64,000 nucleotides of DNA from Alistipes provencensis. GTDB taxonomy: Bacteria > Bacteroidota > Bacteroidia > Bacteroidales > Rikenellaceae. Shown here in pieces: positions 2,354 through 25,444 of this stretch. The position numbers were made by a program, and so were the translations under genes. The number at the start of each line of letters is the position of its first letter. Within the stretch, counting starts at the first letter, position 1. The notes under the pieces are model-generated. The model was given only the letters and a program-made list of their open reading frames with translations, searched no databases and had not been told where the DNA came from. Location: contig NZ_LT559262.1 of the NCBI RefSeq assembly GCF_900083545.1, forward strand, positions 3,212,324-3,276,323. The letters are read 5' to 3'.

Positions 2354-2384
2354 TTTGCCGATTTAAAAAAATCCATTATCTTTG
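2354..2384 (+). promoter_or_regulatory. promoter of tRNA-Asp (copy 1)
   Basis: A TTTG (2354-2357) and a TATCTTTG (2377-2384) are separated by 19 bases, matching the Bacteroidota sigma-ABfr consensus TTTG-N19-TAnnTTTG. The -7 box lies 20 bases before the mature tRNA. The 27 bases from the -7 box to the tRNA are identical to those before the second tRNA-Asp near 25362. Confidence 0.75.
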
Positions 2385-2403
2385 CACTCGCAATAACCGG
2401 AAT

Positions 2404-2477
2404 GGTGCGTTAGTTCAGCTGGTTAGAATACGTGCCTGTCACGCACGGGGTCAGGGGTTCGAGTCCCCTACGCACCG
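2404..2477 (+). tRNA. tRNA-Asp (GTC), copy 1; insertion target of the element
   Basis: A 74-nt cloverleaf: acceptor arm GGTGCGT paired with ACGCACC and discriminator G, anticodon loop CTGTCAC with anticodon GTC between CGTGC and GCACG, and T-arm AGGGG-TTCGAGT-CCCCT. The sequence is identical to the copy at 25362-25435. Its last 14 bases are the start of the 16-bp repeat that recurs at 21001-21016, so an integrative element is inserted here and has rebuilt the 3' end of the gene. Confidence 0.97.
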
Positions 2478-2479
2478 CA
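2464..2479 (+). repeat. left attachment repeat (attL) in tRNA-Asp
   Basis: TCCCCTACGCACCGCA: T-arm and acceptor 3' strand of tRNA-Asp plus two bases. Perfect match to 21001-21016. Identity stops at both ends of the 16 bp. Confidence 0.8.
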
Positions 2480-2716: not shown

Positions 2717-3934
2717 ATGGAAAGAACAACATTCGGTATGACGTTCTATATTCGTAGAACGAAATTAGACAAGACCGGTAAGGCTCCGGTCTTCATGCGA
2801 ATTACGGTAAACGGACAACGGGCGGATGCGAGTATAAAATACCACATTCCGCTACGACTTTGGTGTACTGCAAAAGGACGGGCCGTAGAAAACAGCAAGG
2901 AAGGCAAGGAACTCAATCGCTTGTTGGATGCAATTTCTTTTAATATCACGCAGGTCAGAAGACAATTGGAGTCCGAAGGACAGGAGATATCAGCATCGGC
3001 CGTCCTACTCCGCTATCTGGGTAAGGATGCTCCTCAGCGACATTCATTAATAGAGGTATTTAAAGAGCATAATGAAAAATGCCGGGCGTTGTCCGGAATT
3101 GATTTTTCACCCACAACCGTCCAACGATACGACAGTCTTTTGCGTATTACACAAGAATTTTTAAACCGACAGGACGGGAAAACGGATTTTTATCTGGATG
3201 AGTTACCCGAACGGTTAGTAGAGGATTACGAATTCTACATGAAGATTCACCGGAAATGCGCTCATAATACAGTGATGAAGAATCTCAAAAACTTCAAAAA
3301 AATCATACGCATAGCCATGACAAACGGATGGTTGAAAAAAGATCCGTTCAGGGAAAAGCATATCCATATGGAAAAGGTCGAACGGGCTTTCTTGGAAAAA
3401 CACGAATTCCTGCAGGTGTTGAATAAACAGATCGACATTCCACGGATTGGTCAGATTCGGGATATCTTCTGTTTCTGCTGCCTGACAGGATTAGCCTTTG
3501 CGGATGTACAACAATTGAAGCCGGAACATATTGTCAAGGATATCAACGGAATGGAATGGATTCGAAAGGCGCGGCAGAAAACCAAAAACATGTGTAACAT
3601 TCCCTTGCTGGAGGAAGCTCGAAAGATTCTGAACCGCTACAAAGCACATCCCTATTGTCAGGCGCACAGCGTGCTTCTCCCCGTGTGCAGCAATCAGAAG
3701 ATGAATATGTATCTGAAGGAACTGGCGGACATATGCGGTATCCAAAAACACCTGTCAACACACACTGCACGCCACACATTCGCAACGCTGACTCTCGCCA
3801 GCGGCGCCACAATCGACAATGTGGCCAAAATGCTCGGACGTACCAATACCAACATGACAAGACATTACGCACGCATTTTGGACTCTTCGATCATGAGGGA
3901 CATGCAAATCGTAGCAAAAAATATCGCCATGTAG
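2717..3934 (+). CDS. tyrosine recombinase (integrase) of the element
   Basis: 405 residues, the normal length for Bacteroidota mobile-element integrases. It begins with an arm-type DNA-binding domain (MTFYIRRTKLDKTGKAPV), followed by a SAM-like core-binding domain (about 100-210) and a C-terminal catalytic domain. Visible catalytic elements are the beta-hairpin Lys in RQKTKN, HTARHTF and the nucleophilic Tyr in MTRHYARI. The first catalytic arginine position reads TGLAFADV, an alanine-type substitution known in the CTnDOT-like group. Placed 240 bp inside the tRNA-Asp insertion point, it should catalyse integration into and excision from the tRNA end. Confidence 0.95.
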   Translation: MERTTFGMTFYIRRTKLDKTGKAPVFMRITVNGQRADASIKYHIPLRLWCTAKGRAVENSKEGKELNRLLDAISFNITQVRRQLESEGQEISASAVLLRYLGKDAPQRHSLIEVFKEHNEKCRALSGIDFSPTTVQRYDSLLRITQEFLNRQDGKTDFYLDELPERLVEDYEFYMKIHRKCAHNTVMKNLKNFKKIIRIAMTNGWLKKDPFREKHIHMEKVERAFLEKHEFLQVLNKQIDIPRIGQIRDIFCFCCLTGLAFADVQQLKPEHIVKDINGMEWIRKARQKTKNMCNIPLLEEARKILNRYKAHPYCQAHSVLLPVCSNQKMNMYLKELADICGIQKHLSTHTARHTFATLTLASGATIDNVAKMLGRTNTNMTRHYARILDSSIMRDMQIVAKNIAM

Positions 3935-4053
3935 AAAGGTTACCGGCCATAGTAGGCCTGCACAGGACCAAACGAATCATTTTCAGAGGTTTATATTTCC
4001 TTTGTAGTTCACTCCGATAAGTCGGGGAATTGTTGAACCTCAAAACAAAAAAG

Positions 4054-4341
4054 ATGGAATGCAAACTGATTGAAGCTGCAGCCTTTGACGAATTGAAATC
4101 AATCGTCAATCGGCTGCATACCCAAGCAACTCGCCTGGCCGTTCATACCACACCCGGCACCCCGAATGGGTGGCTGACACAGGAAGAGCTATGTCGTATT
4201 TTGCATGTCACAAAACGGGCGTTGCAATACCTTCGGCAACAGCGTAAAATTCCCTATACAAGGCTCGGAAATAAGGTCTTTTTTCGAGAAGCGGATATAA
4301 AACGAATGCTCAAGTTAAACCTGATCAAACCCAAGCAATGA
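4054..4341 (+). CDS. helix-turn-helix (HTH_17, excisionase-like) protein 1
   Basis: 95 residues from ATG 4054; an in-frame upstream start at 4030 is possible, but 4054 follows an A-rich stretch typical of Bacteroidota initiation. The second half is a MerR/excisionase-type HTH: LTQEELCRILHVTKRALQYLRQQ followed by the wing IPYTRLGNKVFFREADIKRML. Such proteins bind attachment-site DNA and steer the integrase towards excision, or regulate element genes. Its stop overlaps the start of the next HTH gene (ATGA). The divergent first 40 residues look helical. Confidence 0.85.
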   Translation: MECKLIEAAAFDELKSIVNRLHTQATRLAVHTTPGTPNGWLTQEELCRILHVTKRALQYLRQQRKIPYTRLGNKVFFREADIKRMLKLNLIKPKQ

Positions 4342-4849: not shown

Positions 4850-5117
4850 ATGAACAGAATCATATTGATCGGAAACGGCTTCGATTTGGCACACGGGCTG
4901 CCGATGAGTTATGCGGATTTCATTCGGGGATACTATACTATTCAGAAATTAAAATTGCTGGAGGGTGAAAGCGAACTGAATGACGGTCTATGTTCTGTGA
5001 AAATCTCCAATCCAGAGGATCGAAAACTTATGGAGAAGTTTCGGTGGATGCTGAGTGATAATATGCTCCGATATGTAAACAATGTGGGAGAGATAACTCT
5101 GACGGAGCAATATAACC
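4850..5117 (+). pseudogene. 5' remnant of an AbiH-family abortive-infection gene
   Basis: Only the first 90 or so residues survive: MNRIILIGNGFDLAHGLPMSYADFI is the nucleotide-binding-like N-terminus typical of AbiH phage-defence proteins, which are usually several hundred residues long. The frame then runs through a terminator hairpin (5118-5146) and the antisense strand of another broken gene, ending at 5317; that tail is not AbiH. The promoter and start codon are intact, so a short peptide could be made, but defence activity is not expected. The junction near 5117 marks a deletion or rearrangement inside the element. Confidence 0.75.
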
Positions 5118-5146
5118 GGGGCTGCCCGAATAATTCGGACAGCCCT
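5118..5146 (-). terminator. terminator of broken paralogue A
   Basis: GGGGCTGCCCGAA (5118-5130) pairs imperfectly with TTCGGACAGCCCT (5134-5146). It is related to the perfect palindrome at 8497-8526 downstream of paralogue B. Confidence 0.55.
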
Positions 5147-5166
5147 CTCTTCATTAACGAGTCGCG

Positions 5167-5318
5167 TCACCTCACCCCGATGGGTGATTTCTCTCCCAAA
5201 CACAGATGCGTCAATAATTTCTCGCCATCTTTCCGACAAGCCGGTTGCTCTTTAAGTATACGGTTGAAAGTCTTGTCGAATGCATTCCGGAGTATTGAGC
5301 TATCCTCTGTTTTTTAGA
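5167..5318 (-). pseudogene. 3' remnant of an unknown-family gene (paralogue A)
   Basis: On the minus strand this stretch encodes about 47 residues (AFDKTFNRILKEQPACRKDGEKLL, then LGEKSPIGVR and a stop) that align with the C-terminus of the intact 141-residue protein at 8548-8973 (AFDKAFKRIHNKESACRIDAEKLL, then EEKSPAEVR). The 5' two thirds are missing. The shared region continues past the stop into a related terminator hairpin at 5118-5146, showing that gene and terminator were duplicated together. Confidence 0.75.
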
Positions 5319-5324
5319 AGATCG

Positions 5325-5774
5325 TTATCGTCGAATCAGGAAACGTATCAGTTTTATCAAGTTCCACAGGATCGTGAAAGGGGCTGTGAAAAAACCGATA
5401 ATCACGGAAAGGAGCAATTTGAGCACATAATAGATCGCCCAAGTCGTCAACTCACCCTGTACCAGACGCCATCCAACGACTGAATTCAAAAACTGCCAGC
5501 CGGAAACTATGGCCATCAACATATAACCGCTGGCTAATCTCCCGTCTGGAAATCCATCTCCTTCCATGAAATTCCATTTGTATCCCCCAATAAATAATCC
5601 GACATAGACAAGCAAATGAAAGATGGTTGAACCGGTAGCTTGGCTTTTTAATGTTTCACGGCATGCGGCACATAGAGGTTTTTGCTGGTTGTGTACGCAT
5701 TGCACACACAGTCCTTTTCCGCATTCCGTACATTGGGCGACTGCTGTTTGGGTAGGGTGATTTGCACAATTCAT
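5325..5774 (-). CDS. B-box-type zinc-finger membrane protein
   Basis: 149 residues. The first 40 residues carry a B-box-like pattern of paired cysteines and a histidine (CANHP, CTECGKGLCVQC, CAAC), as in small bacterial proteins with an N-terminal zinc finger. The rest is hydrophobic, with about three or four membrane segments (FHLLVYVGLFIGGY, SGYMLMAIVSGWQFL, IYYVLKLLLSVIIGF) and a basic tail RFLIRR. It stands alone on the minus strand inside the element with its stop close to the paralogue-A fragment. Function unknown; the zinc finger might sense or bind a partner at the membrane. Confidence 0.8.
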   Translation of the reverse strand: MNCANHPTQTAVAQCTECGKGLCVQCVHNQQKPLCAACRETLKSQATGSTIFHLLVYVGLFIGGYKWNFMEGDGFPDGRLASGYMLMAIVSGWQFLNSVVGWRLVQGELTTWAIYYVLKLLLSVIIGFFTAPFTILWNLIKLIRFLIRR

Positions 5775-5887
5775 AAATCAGGACGAATAGTTCCAGTACA
5801 AAAATAATCTTTTCAACAGAAAAAATACACTATTGCAAAAGAAAAACAGTACGATATTGCCCATTGCCCCGATCTGAAAATTTGAGG

Positions 5888-5970
5888 AAACGACCGATAT
5901 TTTTTATATTTGTAAGGATTGAATGCATTTTTAATGCATTTGGTTTCAGATATATAACATTCGGTCGTTT
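5888..5970. promoter_or_regulatory. promoter and inverted repeat upstream of the GNAT/IbrA/IbrB operon
   Basis: A -7 box TATATTTG lies at 5905-5912. It is enclosed by a 10-bp inverted repeat AAACGACCGA (5888-5897) and TCGGTCGTTT (5961-5970), and a smaller repeat ATGCATTTTTAATGCAT lies between. The arms flank the promoter and leader, so an operator for a dimeric repressor is a reasonable guess. Confidence 0.5.
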
Positions 5971-5985
5971 TATAACCTTTCGGAT

Positions 5986-6393
5986 ATGACAATCGAGAAA
6001 CTGGACGGCACTTCGCCCCGCCTTTATACACTCGTCGCTCCGCTGGTCATGCGGCGCAGCGTGCTACGCCAGAACAACAACTACCCATTCTGGACCTCGC
6101 GTGCGCACACATGGTTCGTCGCGTGGGAAGGCCAGACCGTCTTCGGGTTCATGCCCGTGGAGATCACCGACGGCGGAGTGGCCAAGATCAACAACTACTA
6201 CGTTTCGGGCGACGACCCGCAGCTGCTGTCGCGCTTCCTGCGCGAAATCATCCGATACTACCACCGCGACTATACGATACGTTCCGTGACGCTGCTCCGC
6301 CACGCCGAAGTATTCCGCACCGAGGGCTTCGTCCCCACGAAGGAGTGGACGCAGTATGTGACGATGCAATACGGGAAAAAACGGCAGCCATGA
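5986..6393 (+). CDS. GNAT-like small protein preceding IbrA
   Basis: 135 residues. The pattern of strands and helices, with FGFMPVEITDGGVAKINNYYVSGDD, then LLSRFLREIIRYY and EGFVPTKEWTQYVTMQY, resembles an acetyltransferase (GNAT) fold, although the acetyl-CoA loop is not clearly recognisable. Its stop overlaps the IbrA start (ATGA at 6390-6393). The three genes GNAT-like, IbrA and IbrB form one coupled operon with GC-rich codon use like the host chromosome. Substrate unknown. Confidence 0.75.
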   Translation: MTIEKLDGTSPRLYTLVAPLVMRRSVLRQNNNYPFWTSRAHTWFVAWEGQTVFGFMPVEITDGGVAKINNYYVSGDDPQLLSRFLREIIRYYHRDYTIRSVTLLRHAEVFRTEGFVPTKEWTQYVTMQYGKKRQP

Positions 6394-7706
6394 ACGTCTA
6401 CGAGCGGACACAGCAGCGGTTGAAAACGGTCTTCGACCTTTTCGACAACATCTACGTCTCCTTTTCCGGCGGCAAGGACAGCGGCGTGCTGCTCAACCTC
6501 TGCATCGACTACGTCCGGCATCACGGACTGCACCGCCGGATCGGGGTATTCCACATGGATTACGAAATCCAGTACCGCGACACGCTCGATTATGTGGACC
6601 GGACGCTGGCCGCGAACGCCGACATTCTCGATGTCTACCGGGTCTGCGTGCCGTTCAAGGTCCAGACCTGCACCTCGATGTTCCGGCAGTACTGGCGGCC
6701 GTGGGAGGAGTCGAAGCGGGACGTTTGGGTACGGGAGATGCCCGAAGGATCTCTCACGCGGCGCGACTTCCCGTTCTTCACTGACGAAATGTGGGACTAC
6801 GAATTCCAGAACCGCTTCGCCGAATGGCTCCACGCACGCAGCGGCGCGGCGCGCACATGCTGTCTGATCGGCATCCGCACGCAGGAGAGCTTCAACCGCT
6901 GGCGCACGATATACAGCGACCGCAACCACCACCGGTTCGGCGGAAAACGGTGGATACGGCAATGGGTCGGCGGCGGCATCTGCAACGCCTATCCGCTCTA
7001 CGACTGGCTGACGACCGATATCTGGACGGCGAACGGACGTTTCGGCTGGCCCTACAACCGGCTGTACGACCTTTTCTACCGGGCCGGCGTGCCGCTCGAC
7101 AGTCAGCGCGTGGCCAGTCCGTTCATCTCGCCGGCCATCGCCAGCCTGCACCTCTACAAAGCCATCGATCCGGACACATGGGGACGCATGGTCGGCCGGG
7201 TCGACGGAGCCAATTTCGCGGCGCTGTACGGCAGGACGGCGGCAGTCGGCTGGCAGTCGGTGCGTCTGCCGAAGGGAATGACGTGGGAGCGTTACATGCA
7301 CTTCCTGCTCTCGACCCTTCCGGGGCCGACGCGGCGCAACTATCTGGAAAAACTCTCCGTGAGCATCCGCTTCTGGCGCGAAAAGGGCGGATGTCTCTCC
7401 GAGGAGACCATCGCCAGACTGCAAAAGGCCGGCATCCGCATCGAAGTCGGCGACAGGAGCGCCTACCGCACCGACAAGCGTCCGGTGCGCATGGAGTATC
7501 TCGACGACACGGACCTGCCGGAATTCAGCCAGCTGCCCACGTTCAAGCGTATCTGCATCTGCATCCTGAAAAACGACCACGCCTGCAAATACATGGGTTT
7601 TTCGCCCAACAAAAGCGAAACGCAGCGCCGCAGGAAAATCATGGAAAAATATGAATCGCTATTACGAACATCCGACCGAGAAAAACTTCCGGAGCCCTGT
7701 CTATAA
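6390..7706 (+). CDS. ibrA: IbrA-like phosphoadenosine-phosphosulfate reductase family protein (DUF3440)
   Basis: 438 residues. The N-terminal half is a PP-loop ATP-pyrophosphatase domain with SFSGGKDS (residues 24-31), as in PAPS reductases and tRNA thiolases; the C-terminal half matches the DUF3440 arrangement of IbrA. IbrA and IbrB were described as co-acting regulators of immunoglobulin-binding genes in E. coli and are common on phages and integrative elements. The true start is ATG 6390; the same frame is open from 6111 but that part overlaps the GNAT-like gene. It overlaps the next gene by 56 bp. The biochemical reaction is unknown. Confidence 0.88.
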   Translation: MNVYERTQQRLKTVFDLFDNIYVSFSGGKDSGVLLNLCIDYVRHHGLHRRIGVFHMDYEIQYRDTLDYVDRTLAANADILDVYRVCVPFKVQTCTSMFRQYWRPWEESKRDVWVREMPEGSLTRRDFPFFTDEMWDYEFQNRFAEWLHARSGAARTCCLIGIRTQESFNRWRTIYSDRNHHRFGGKRWIRQWVGGGICNAYPLYDWLTTDIWTANGRFGWPYNRLYDLFYRAGVPLDSQRVASPFISPAIASLHLYKAIDPDTWGRMVGRVDGANFAALYGRTAAVGWQSVRLPKGMTWERYMHFLLSTLPGPTRRNYLEKLSVSIRFWREKGGCLSEETIARLQKAGIRIEVGDRSAYRTDKRPVRMEYLDDTDLPEFSQLPTFKRICICILKNDHACKYMGFSPNKSETQRRRKIMEKYESLLRTSDREKLPEPCL

Positions 7707-8214
7707 CGTCCGCGCCGTACCGGTGGAGAAGATCGTGGCGAACAGCTACAACCCCAACGTCGTGGCACCGCCCGAAATGAAACTGCTGGAACTGTCTATT
7801 TGGGAGGACGGCTACACGATGCCGTGCGTCTGCTATTACGACGCCGAAAGGGACCGTTACGAACTGGTGGACGGCTACCACCGCTATCTGGTGCTCAAAA
7901 CCTCGAAGCGCATCTACGAACGCGAACGAGGGCTGCTGCCCGTCACCGTGATCGAAAAGGACCTTTCGAACCGCATGGCCTCGACCATCCGCCACAACCG
8001 GGCGCGGGGGACGCACAATGTCGAGCTGATGAGCGAGATCGTCGCCGAACTGACCCGCGCCCGGATGTCCGACCAGTGGATCATGCGTCATATCGGCATG
8101 GACCGCGACGAGCTGCTGCGTTTGAAACAGATCACGGGCCTCGCCGAACTCTTCGCCGACAAGGAGTTCAGCATCGGAGATGCCGACGAGGACGTGTCCG
8201 AAACCGTGCCGTAA
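7651..8214 (+). CDS. ibrB: IbrB-like ParB-domain protein
   Basis: 187 residues. It begins with a ParB/Sulfiredoxin-type domain: VPVEKIVANSYNPN, then ELVDGYHRYLV, which stands in for the GxRRxxA nucleotide-binding box of ParB. A helical region with RHNRARGTHN and a likely HTH follows (AELTRARMSDQWIMRHIGMDRDELLRLKQITG). ParB-like domains bind CTP or ATP, and IbrB always travels with IbrA. Overlap with ibrA and shared codon use show a single transcription unit. Target genes are unknown. Confidence 0.87.
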   Translation: MNRYYEHPTEKNFRSPVYNVRAVPVEKIVANSYNPNVVAPPEMKLLELSIWEDGYTMPCVCYYDAERDRYELVDGYHRYLVLKTSKRIYERERGLLPVTVIEKDLSNRMASTIRHNRARGTHNVELMSEIVAELTRARMSDQWIMRHIGMDRDELLRLKQITGLAELFADKEFSIGDADEDVSETVP

Positions 8215-8547
8215 CCACCCGCTTACTCCGGAATCCCCGTTTCGGATCCAGCGGATGGGACTGATAGAACGTTTTCCCGAAGTCGATCCATGCAATGATC
8301 CGACCGTCTTGAGGGGGCATCAGCGTCAGCGGACGGTATTCGCGCTTCCTAAACTCACGATCTCCGATGACAAGGTACTTTTAGTGGAAATCATCGAGAA
8401 AAACGGAGCCCGGCATCAGACTACCGAAATAATGAGCCGAGAACTTTCGAATGCCAAGGTGTTATAATATAAAATAGACTGATCCGTGAAAACACCGGGG
8501 GCTGTCCGAAATTTCGGACAGCCCCCTCCCTTCATTAACGAGTCGCG
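8215..8547. other. no intact gene; degenerate spacer with a terminator
   Basis: The short open frame at 8180-8467 overlaps ibrB and has no recognisable family; its last 60 residues could be a remnant but I cannot identify it. The only clear structure is the palindrome at 8497-8526. Confidence 0.5.
8497..8526 (-). terminator. 30-bp perfect palindrome, terminator of paralogue B
   Basis: GGGGGCTGTCCGAAA (8497-8511) followed directly by its exact reverse complement (8512-8526). It lies just downstream of the minus-strand gene at 8548-8973. The T-tract on that strand is weak (GGTGTTTTC). Confidence 0.7.
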
Positions 8548-8973
8548 TCACCGCACCTCGGCGGGTGATTTCTCCTCTAAACAGATTATCAGATGCTTCA
8601 ATAACTTTTCAGCATCTATCCGGCAGGCCGATTCCTTGTTGTGTATACGCTTAAAAGCCTTGTCGAACGCATCCCAAAGTATCAGACTGAACCGGTCGGC
8701 TTCGACCGGTCCCATGTATTTGACCTCCATGGTCGGAAGCCACATCGAGAATTCGATGTTGACCGACTGCCGGAACAGTTCCAGCAATTCGTCGGACTCG
8801 TGGCGGTAGTCGAGAAACGTGTTTTCGCAAATCCCGAACTTGGGCCGAATGATTGAATGATAGATTTTCGCATGGGTTCTGCGATGGTCGCGCTTCTCGA
8901 AAAACCAGCGGTCGATCTTTTTGACGCTTACCACACGATAAGGGCGATAGGGATTCTCGTTATCCTTTTTCAT
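8548..8973 (-). CDS. unknown-function protein, paralogue B of a three-copy family
   Basis: 141 residues, soluble, no signal peptide or membrane segment. It shares with paralogue C (9561-9950) an N-terminal NPYRxV..KKIDxW and EKxDxRRTH, the block GxCENxxLDYRHxSDELLELFxQ, then IExxxWLxxM.VKxM and a C-terminal helix with LLKxL. The invariant His, Arg, Asp and Glu of RRTH, CEN and DYRH.SDE could form an active or metal site, but this is speculation. Paralogue A (5167-5318) is a fragment of the same family. I do not recognise a named domain. Expression is on the minus strand, with a strong palindrome as terminator. Confidence 0.75.
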   Translation of the reverse strand: MKKDNENPYRPYRVVSVKKIDRWFFEKRDHRRTHAKIYHSIIRPKFGICENTFLDYRHESDELLELFRQSVNIEFSMWLPTMEVKYMGPVEADRFSLILWDAFDKAFKRIHNKESACRIDAEKLLKHLIICLEEKSPAEVR

Positions 8974-9125
8974 AACTGTAAAGTTTTAAGCCGGATGACA
9001 TTATCCTTATCTTAAATTTACATAATTCCCCTATTCGAGATTTTCCGTATTGTCTCGAAGTTTGGAACCTAAGGCCGGCACCCGCACCTAAAGATCAGAG
9101 CTCGATAAAGTCGTACAGACATCCA

Positions 9126-9151
9126 CGAGTTGCTTTTTTATTAGCAACTCG
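9126..9151. repeat. 8-bp inverted repeat
   Basis: CGAGTTGC (9126-9133) and GCAACTCG (9144-9151) around a T/A-rich loop. It sits in the 281-bp gap between divergent genes 8548-8973 and 9255-9527 and could be an operator or a small terminator. Confidence 0.4.
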
Positions 9152-9254
9152 GAGTATCTGCTAAAATAAAATATTGGAATGGTTCCACATGTTCTTGCAA
9201 GGTCTCTGCGTTTCATCCATCTTTGCCGCACAAACTATAAAACAGCCCAAACGA

Positions 9255-9527
9255 ATGACGGTGAAACATTGCAATTTCAAAGTCGGAGAGGTATATCTTT
9301 TCCATACCGACGATCCCCGATGTCCGGATGCGGAATCCTTATGGGGTCTTTACGACAGACACGACGGGAACTCGATCCGACTGGAATCGTGCTCGACGGA
9401 CCAGAAGAACTTCTCGAAAGGTCGGCGTTTGCCGGCGCAATACCGGTTCTGCCGGCTTTCGACCCGCGGCGAATTACGCGATTATATGACCAACAGCATC
9501 TGCTCGGAAATGAGTAACTTTAATTAG
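9255..9527 (+). CDS. small hypothetical protein upstream of paralogue C
   Basis: 90 residues from ATG 9255. The frame is open from 9174, but CATCTTTG near 9218-9225 is a likely -7 box, which would put the longer start before the transcript. The sequence (FKVGEVYLFHTDD, WGLYDRHDGNSIRLESCS, LPAQYRFCRLSTRGELRDYM) looks like a compact beta-rich protein. It ends 33 bp before paralogue C and is probably co-transcribed with it. No family recognised. Confidence 0.6.
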   Translation: MTVKHCNFKVGEVYLFHTDDPRCPDAESLWGLYDRHDGNSIRLESCSTDQKNFSKGRRLPAQYRFCRLSTRGELRDYMTNSICSEMSNFN

Positions 9528-9560
9528 GATAATAGTGTCCTCATTAAAACTTATCGTACT

Positions 9561-9950
9561 ATGAGCAGGGATAATTATAATCCGTACCGGATAGTCGGGG
9601 CCAAAAAGATCGACGTATGGTATTATGAAGAAGGCGATATGCGCAGAACGCATCATAACGTCTACGAGTTAATCATTCTGCCGCTGTACGGAGTCTGTGA
9701 AAACAGTTATCTGGATTACAGGCATCACTCCGACGAACTGCTCGAGCTCTTCATCCAGCCGCCCTATATCGAAGTTCCGCTCTGGCTGATGGTGATGACA
9801 GTCAAGAAAATGCCGCCTCACGAAGCCAACCGTTTCTTCGAACTGCTCCGGACGAAGATGGATCGCATATTCAGAAAATCGTCACACCCTCTGACGGCCG
9901 AGCAGCTCCTCAAACTGCTCGTCGAAGCACTGGCAGAGTTCATGTATTAG
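9561..9950 (+). CDS. unknown-function protein, paralogue C of a three-copy family
   Basis: 129 residues, about 40 percent identical by eye to paralogue B over its full length, with the same core blocks NPYRIV, KKIDVW, RRTH, GVCENSYLDYRH and SDELLELF. It is shorter at the C-terminus. Its 3' flank GTGACGCGACTC matches the flanks of paralogues A and B, then diverges into its own terminator. It differs from B in orientation and in having a small partner gene upstream. Function unknown; three copies within 5 kb suggest local duplication or repeated acquisition. Confidence 0.78.
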   Translation: MSRDNYNPYRIVGAKKIDVWYYEEGDMRRTHHNVYELIILPLYGVCENSYLDYRHHSDELLELFIQPPYIEVPLWLMVMTVKKMPPHEANRFFELLRTKMDRIFRKSSHPLTAEQLLKLLVEALAEFMY

Positions 9951-9974
9951 AAGAGTGACGCGACTCATTGCCGG

Positions 9975-10006
9975 AGGGGAGGCCGTTATCGGTCTCCCCT
10001 CTTTTT
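9975..10006 (+). terminator. terminator of paralogue C
   Basis: AGGGGAGGCCG (9975-9985) and CGGTCTCCCCT (9990-10000), one mismatch, 4-base loop, then CTTTTTG. Confidence 0.75.
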
Positions 10007-25302: not shown

Positions 25303-25342
25303 CCGCAAATATTTGCGGTTTTCAGAAAAAACGGTATCTTTG
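25303..25342 (+). promoter_or_regulatory. palindromic terminator merged with promoter of tRNA-Asp (copy 2)
   Basis: CCGCAAATATTTGCGG (25303-25318) is a perfect 16-bp palindrome after the DUF4886 stop. Its right half contains the -33 TTTG (25312-25315), 19 bases before TATCTTTG (25335-25342), so terminator and promoter overlap. Confidence 0.7.
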
Positions 25343-25361
25343 CACTCGCAATAACCGGAAT

Positions 25362-25435
25362 GGTGCGTTAGTTCAGCTGGTTAGAATACGTGCCTGTCAC
25401 GCACGGGGTCAGGGGTTCGAGTCCCCTACGCACCG
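25362..25435 (+). tRNA. tRNA-Asp (GTC), copy 2
   Basis: 74 nt, identical to the tRNA at 2404-2477, with an intact cloverleaf and anticodon GTC. No element is inserted here. It could act as an alternative target for the integrase. Confidence 0.97.
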
Positions 25436-25444
25436 CTGAAAACG

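Follow-up and report, generated by a model that had tools for sequence, protein, structure and literature searches.

The stretch analysed here, called the window below, comprises 64,000 nucleotides of Alistipes provencensis, a member of the Rikenellaceae (assembly GCF_900083545.1, contig NZ_LT559262.1, positions 3,212,324 to 3,276,323). An initial annotation, made from the sequence alone, proposed that it contains an unrecognised protein family in three copies, A, B and C, with a small gene, here termed X, as a possible constant partner. Our analysis indicates that the B/C family is real and undescribed in the libraries searched, and that the window contains two intact paralogues and one remnant. 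The genes are arranged as follows, in window coordinates.

5118..5295, minus strand: A, a remnant composed of the 3' end of a B-like gene, the 3' flank and a terminator stem (given as 5167-5318 in the initial annotation)
8548..8973, minus strand: B, an intact long-form member of 141 residues, divergent from X-C
8974..9254: intergenic region between the divergent B and X-C, where any shared operator would be expected
9255..9527, plus strand: X, an orphan partner gene of 90 residues directly upstream of C, with a gap of 33 bp
9561..9950, plus strand: C, an intact long-form member of 129 residues

B and C are identical at 66 of 134 positions (125 bits, expectation value (E) 8e-43, BLASTP), and their alignment bears out the conserved blocks RRTH, G(I/V)CEN (noted earlier as GxCEN) and LDYRHxSDELLELF. 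A is identical to B at 146 of 186 positions (E 4e-41, blastn) over the final third of the gene together with its stop region and terminator stem, and at the protein level a 48-residue stretch alone matches (E 0.02). Of the three copies first proposed, B and C are thus intact and about half identical, while A is a mere 3' remnant. Across six pairs of family members the ratio of nonsynonymous to synonymous substitution rates (dN/dS) is 0.17-0.31; dS exceeds 1.3 in five of them, and the sixth and closest pair has a dS of 0.99 and a dN/dS of 0.22. The family is under purifying selection, which agrees with the suggestion that its invariant polar residues are functional. However, the N-terminal blocks need not mark an active site, because they lie within a predicted helix-turn-helix common to a gene of Mu-like phages.

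The conserved 3' flank, which had also been pointed out, is common to A, B and C, and can now be specified as a 12-mer that adjoins or overlaps the stop codon ahead of a terminator-like stem:

9955..9966, plus strand: GTGACGCGACTC, just after the stop of C
8540..8551, minus strand: GTGACGCGACTC, overlapping the stop codon of B
5159..5170, minus strand: GTGACGCGACTC, inside remnant A
9973..10002, plus strand: terminator-like stem after C, 13 pairs
8497..8526, minus strand: terminator-like stem after B, 13 pairs
5119..5145, minus strand: terminator-like stem after A, 12 pairs

The whole 3.8-Mb genome has four copies of the 12-mer, compared with one occurrence of the reversed-pattern control and about 0.7 expected from the base composition of the window. 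The fourth site overlaps the stop codon of the other X gene of this genome, as is the case for B. Stems of 12-13 pairs stand behind all three window sites, and 12 terminator-like sites were found in the region, compared with 6.0 expected from shuffles.

Homologues of C were found in 12 of 268 Rikenellaceae genomes, with the own genome included and the long and short forms pooled. Ten long-form genes were examined, namely B, C and L058 (own genome, near 1585 kb), L051 (genome G166), L052 and L053 (G170), L054 (G132), L055 and L056 (G192), and L057 (G163); an eleventh, L250 (G128), was found later and left out of the counts. Short relatives of 60-90 residues retain the N-terminal half only, and two differing short members occur in tandem at L059 (G248:C216, 2334-2633 and 2777-3037). 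In the Bacteroidales, alignment A2 matches 29 of 393 genomes at E 0.01, several of the weak rows containing internal stops; the count relied on is therefore that of 12 genomes besides the own at E 1e-6 or better. In the search of the phylum, 4 of 395 genomes match, of which the own alone is convincing and the others are at E 0.006-0.007. C alone gave no match in genome contigs or viral contigs and none by tblastn in plasmids and phages, sets from which the own or very near genomes are possibly left out. The long-form alignment has no match in viral contigs, and one short form matched two unannotated phage records (tblastn).

The best matches of 15 members scanned are at E 0.047 in Pfam, 0.021 in NCBIfam and 0.18 in PADLOC (one of the 15), and one member matches a PHROG of no known function at E 0.002. 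Ten phage short forms scanned singly each stayed below all Pfam cut-offs. The best PDB sequence match of the family profile is bL20 (E 0.016), a marginal and short one, and kinship with bL20 was not accepted. The earlier statement that no known domain could be assigned therefore holds, in that no curated family lies above its cut-off in the library scans of members; homologues outside the locus do exist, and their conserved blocks are under purifying selection.

The short form points to phages. Its alignment matches 75 IMG/VR contig stretches, some of them near-copies, and 74 of these carry at least one MuA-, MuB-, GemA-, MuF- or portal-like gene; the protein is also present in the prophages L060 and L061. 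For 44 of 48 distinct short-form proteins, the genes upstream are early-type and share the strand, and those downstream are late-type and on the opposite one, with a median gap of 146 bp. In the reference prophage L061, Pfam cut-offs are exceeded for AAA_22 (the MuB-like gene), DUF3164, Phage_tail_S, Phage_Mu_F and Portal_Mu, while the matches to MuA, the MuB C-terminal domain and GemA fall short of them and were assigned with the help of gene order. In Mu, the gene behind GemA is the positive regulator of the middle operon, and the position of the phage short form is Mor-like. It should be noted that this place at the end of the early region is true of the phage short form and not of B and C, which are long forms with 18-31% identity to the phage forms. 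The family is not filed under Mor, because no sequence relationship was found; no Mor family is among the Pfam matches of 30 members at E 1.

The structures of C and X are model-based hypotheses. The AlphaFold2 (AF2) model of C, built from 30 rows of which five cover the C-terminal half, is all helical, with a mean predicted local distance difference test score (pLDDT) of 83.1 and a predicted template modelling score of 0.58. Residues 11-60 reach a pLDDT of 90-92, and the helices at 31-43 and 47-55 have the spacing of a helix-turn-helix, so that this fold is predicted for the N-terminal half. The C model has no significant fold match among the families listed; for the comparison with the Mor fold, this negative does not extend to unlisted families.

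X is located directly upstream of six of the ten long-form genes examined, that is, C in the window, L051, L054, L055, L056 and L057, in agreement with the initial suggestion of a partner. A decayed X precedes L052 (E 8e-4, with one TGA inside), and no X was found beside B, L053 or L058. X matches occur in 48 of the 268 Rikenellaceae genomes at E 0.01, with up to nine in one genome, and in the neighbourhoods viewed X is commoner alone, amid ordinary chromosomal genes. Since X is mostly alone and long-form genes also occur alone, X-C is a recurrent, not an obligate, pair. Among the 393 Bacteroidales genomes the own alone matches X (E 0.001). X has no match in Pfam or in PDB sequences and none in PADLOC at E 0.01; the X alignment found none in viral contigs, and one X relative found none in phages by tblastn. 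Both X pairs were saturated, and no dN/dS was obtained from them. The AF2 model of X, from two rows, has a mean pLDDT of 65.5 and shows five main strands and a helix. Its fold matches are topped by Sm/Lsm barrels (VIA Z up to 5.5, root-mean-square deviation 2.8, 61 residues aligned), where a Z below 8 may reflect a common arrangement; the best Foldseek match is at E 0.47. As for the surroundings of the loci, ARAGORN found tRNAs in 9 of 57, and in an empty-site comparison of the X locus of G128 only the right flank was matched, in two relatives, besides a widespread tRNA-like stretch.

Many relatives of X are preceded by a folded RNA. The 300 nt ahead of X have a fold z of -5 or lower in 7 of 31 loci (60 shuffles each), and a covariance model made from four loci recovered this structure ahead of X at ten more distinct loci (E 1.8e-17 to 1.3e-4), the remaining rows of that search being repeats of the same places or antisense. 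The RNA is about 150 nt long, has five covarying helices and matches no Rfam family. In 14 sequences, 26 of 31 pairs are changed on both sides and 93.6% of the cells pair, compared with 71.5% in shuffles and 31-40% in slid controls; in 44 sequences, the values are 29 of 31 pairs and 93.5%, compared with 64.6% and 34-41%, respectively, all these figures coming from alignments that were fitted to the structure and favour it. A first covariation count, in which segments had been picked by hand for their complementarity, was circular and was not used.

The RNA probably holds two pseudoknots. For the pseudoknot helices P0 and P4, 92.0% of the cells pair, compared with 87.4% in shuffles (reached by 0 of 500) and 30-55% in slides. 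Six of their pairs are changed on both sides, which is equalled in 71 of 500 shuffles, and their further pair types are equalled in 461 of 500. Consequently, the pseudoknots rest on complementarity more than on covariation. A gathering scan with Rfam of L192, L057 and five other loci gave tRNAs only, and an E-value scan of L097, L105, L202, L198 and L101 gave no match at the coordinates of the RNA.

With stricter filters, the RNA is present at 44 places in 26 of the 268 Rikenellaceae genomes at E 0.01. The aligned set has 44 matches in 43 loci, made up of 41 of those places and three others, and includes L090, L098, L107, L192 and L206-L235. Behind 18 of the 44 an X start codon follows after 20-36 nt, and a further one has X in a different frame (G218:C19). 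AraC-type genes stand behind four (one by Pfam, the others by resemblance), three precede a membrane-anchored protein that we read as helix-turn-helix-like (one was scanned, and had no Pfam support), one precedes a YpsA-like gene, and 17 precede other open reading frames (ORFs) or none. At L227 (G193:C35) two matches stand in tandem (1072-1224 and 1501-1655), the second ahead of the YpsA-like gene. Among the X loci L085-L114, 14 of 30 have the RNA at E 1e-3 or better. In G128, a C-family gene precedes one RNA (E 7.9e-21), and in G170, 34 residues of an 85-residue ORF behind an RNA resemble part of the C-terminal half of a C protein (pair E 2e-8). Two of the 75 Mu-like phage stretches contain the RNA (R3; L188, 11924-12085, and L189, 8674-8828; E 8e-4 in 947 kb), in both cases in the accessory stretch after the short-form gene. 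The window contains no such RNA at E 10 (R2) or at E 1 (R1, R3). The own genome is not listed at E 0.01 in the genome search with R2, and its second X locus is at E 5.7e-6 in a smaller search.

B, C and X are carried on what is likely a 23-kb integrative island, bounded by two identical repeats:

2381..2478, plus strand: left 98-bp direct repeat with tRNA-Asp, the likely attachment site
25339..25436, plus strand: right 98-bp repeat with tRNA-Asp, identical to the left

Within it, the ORF at 2717-3934 is, as we read it by eye, presumably a tyrosine recombinase, and there are an HTH_17/excisionase-type gene (4030-4341) and a relaxase fragment. The AbiH gene at 4850-5317 is truncated to about its first quarter (profile positions 1-57 of 260), with remnant A directly behind it. 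Three ORFs stand in a row at 5986-8214: one assigned to no family, a DUF3440/PAPS-reductase gene (PF11922, PF01507) and one with a weak resemblance to ParB_N, an arrangement similar to that of the IbrA/IbrB pairs. The PAPS-reductase gene also has a weak BrxP match in PADLOC (E 1e-4).

At about even odds, we propose that B and C are regulators which bind DNA and have relatives in phages, and that the 23-kb tRNA-Asp island carries them as accessory cargo. Both would be small sequence-specific DNA binders, whose N-terminal helix-turn-helix is common to the short protein at the end of the early genes of Mu-like phages. The long form adds a helical C-terminal half, which probably serves self-association or the holding of a partner. 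C would be transcribed together with X, whose small barrel-like product probably modifies the action of C or is controlled by it, and the shared intergenic region would be the probable target of B, which diverges from X-C.

Several results weigh against this proposal. The C model has no significant PDB fold match in Foldseek (best E 2.5), and in VIA the TetR- and LysR-type DNA-binding domains score only Z 2.3-2.6, whereas helical proteins unrelated to them have Z up to 4.0. No Pfam helix-turn-helix family is above cut-off, the best such models being at E 0.064 and 0.085 with one member each. There is no sequence match to Mor (hhalign of alignment A7 against Mu Mor, probability 0.1%), and the C-terminal half of the model rests on five sequences. 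As to a role in defence, which had been raised at the outset, there is no direct support: no convincing match was found in PADLOC (best E 0.18 for the family, none for X), and the neighbouring AbiH is truncated.

Then, could X and C work in the manner of a toxin and its antitoxin? In that case X would be toxic and C a DNA-binding antitoxin that represses the operon; where X is alone, the upstream RNA or a further copy would restrain it. Such a pair would fit the constant order and short spacing of the two small genes at six loci, the predicted small beta barrel of X with its C-terminal helix, and the multiple copies of X per genome. However, X is mostly alone, as are the long-form genes B, L053 and L058, and the reading is weakened because both partners are so often alone. 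X lacks a match in Pfam, PDB sequences and PADLOC, and the RNA occurs ahead of other genes too; 1 of 6 X-C pairs has it, compared with 13 of 25 X genes that are alone, a difference that is not significant (Fisher p 0.18). We regard this explanation as unlikely.

A further possibility is that the host long forms compete for the operator of the phage short form and constitute a superinfection-immunity device on the island. In favour of such a device, the N-terminal half is homologous to a phage protein whose gene has a fixed position, and the remnant of a phage-defence gene is nearby, while the role of the phage protein itself is deduced from position, PADLOC gives no match, and shared operators are uncertain because the identity to the phage forms is just 18-31%; we consider it decidedly doubtful. 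It is very unlikely that the family binds RNA like bL20 and acts, jointly with X as an Sm-like RNA-binding barrel, on structured leader RNAs, as the bL20 match of the profile, the Sm/Lsm barrels among the fold matches of X and the covarying RNA ahead of many X genes might suggest, since that bL20 match is marginal, the X model comes from two sequences at low Z, and X of the window has no such RNA.

To return to B and C as regulators, they may belong to a larger whole, although as a complete picture we think this improbable. The window would be a reduced form of an undescribed Rikenellaceae accessory system with three exchangeable parts: the double-pseudoknot leader RNA of about 150 nt, a small protein encoded downstream, which is mostly X and in other places AraC-type, YpsA-like or different again, and a DNA-binding protein of the C family, which Mu-like phages also have. 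Expression of the small protein would be set by the RNA in response to a signal that perhaps comes from a phage, and C would act on phage or island promoters.

The B/C family, the X family and the RNA are new to the libraries searched, while small accessory regulators that have a partner and lie on an island are, as a general kind, already known. In the parts of the open-access literature consulted, PMC12135933 (hankyphage) and PMC2864571 among it, no description of either family or of the RNA was found, which does not prove their absence from print. The analysis links the B/C family with a gene of Mu-like phages that lacks an annotation and has a fixed position, and it uncovers a covarying RNA, probably with pseudoknots, ahead of several small genes that are unrelated to one another. 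Should the short form be what activates the switch of these phages from early to later genes, their lytic switch becomes open to testing, and the host long forms are candidates for interfering with it.

Compared with known systems, the RNA resembles the bacterial structured leader RNAs in Rfam in having covarying helices 20-36 nt before X start codons, and differs from them in lacking an Rfam family match, in the unrelated genes behind it and in its location outside the window. Like type II toxin-antitoxin operons, X-C consists of a pair of small neighbouring genes, and a DNA-binding domain is predicted for one of them; the differences are that both genes are often alone and that no known toxin or antitoxin domain was found in Pfam (none for X, none above cut-off for C members). 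To the first half of DUF6058 (PF19531) there are weak colinear matches, from 5 of the 30 members scanned when E values up to 1 are admitted (best E 0.0014), and one phage protein scores 18.5 bits over profile positions 8-55 of 126. However, the best singly scanned member is below the 25-bit cut-off and B and C themselves do not match, so the relationship may be taken as a lead only.

The Mor/C activators, which we take to be Pfam PF08765, resemble the phage short form as small predicted helix-turn-helix proteins encoded at the end of the early genes, behind a GemA-like gene. No sequence match to them was found, and the later genes of Mu run in the same direction, whereas here the late genes face the short form. 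In the phage neighbourhoods viewed, where no search was aimed at X, no X was noticed, and the RNA is present in only 2 of the 75 stretches (R2, R3). The phage short-form protein, at 60-90 residues, is without the C-terminal half of B and C, and shares with them a homologous N-terminal half.

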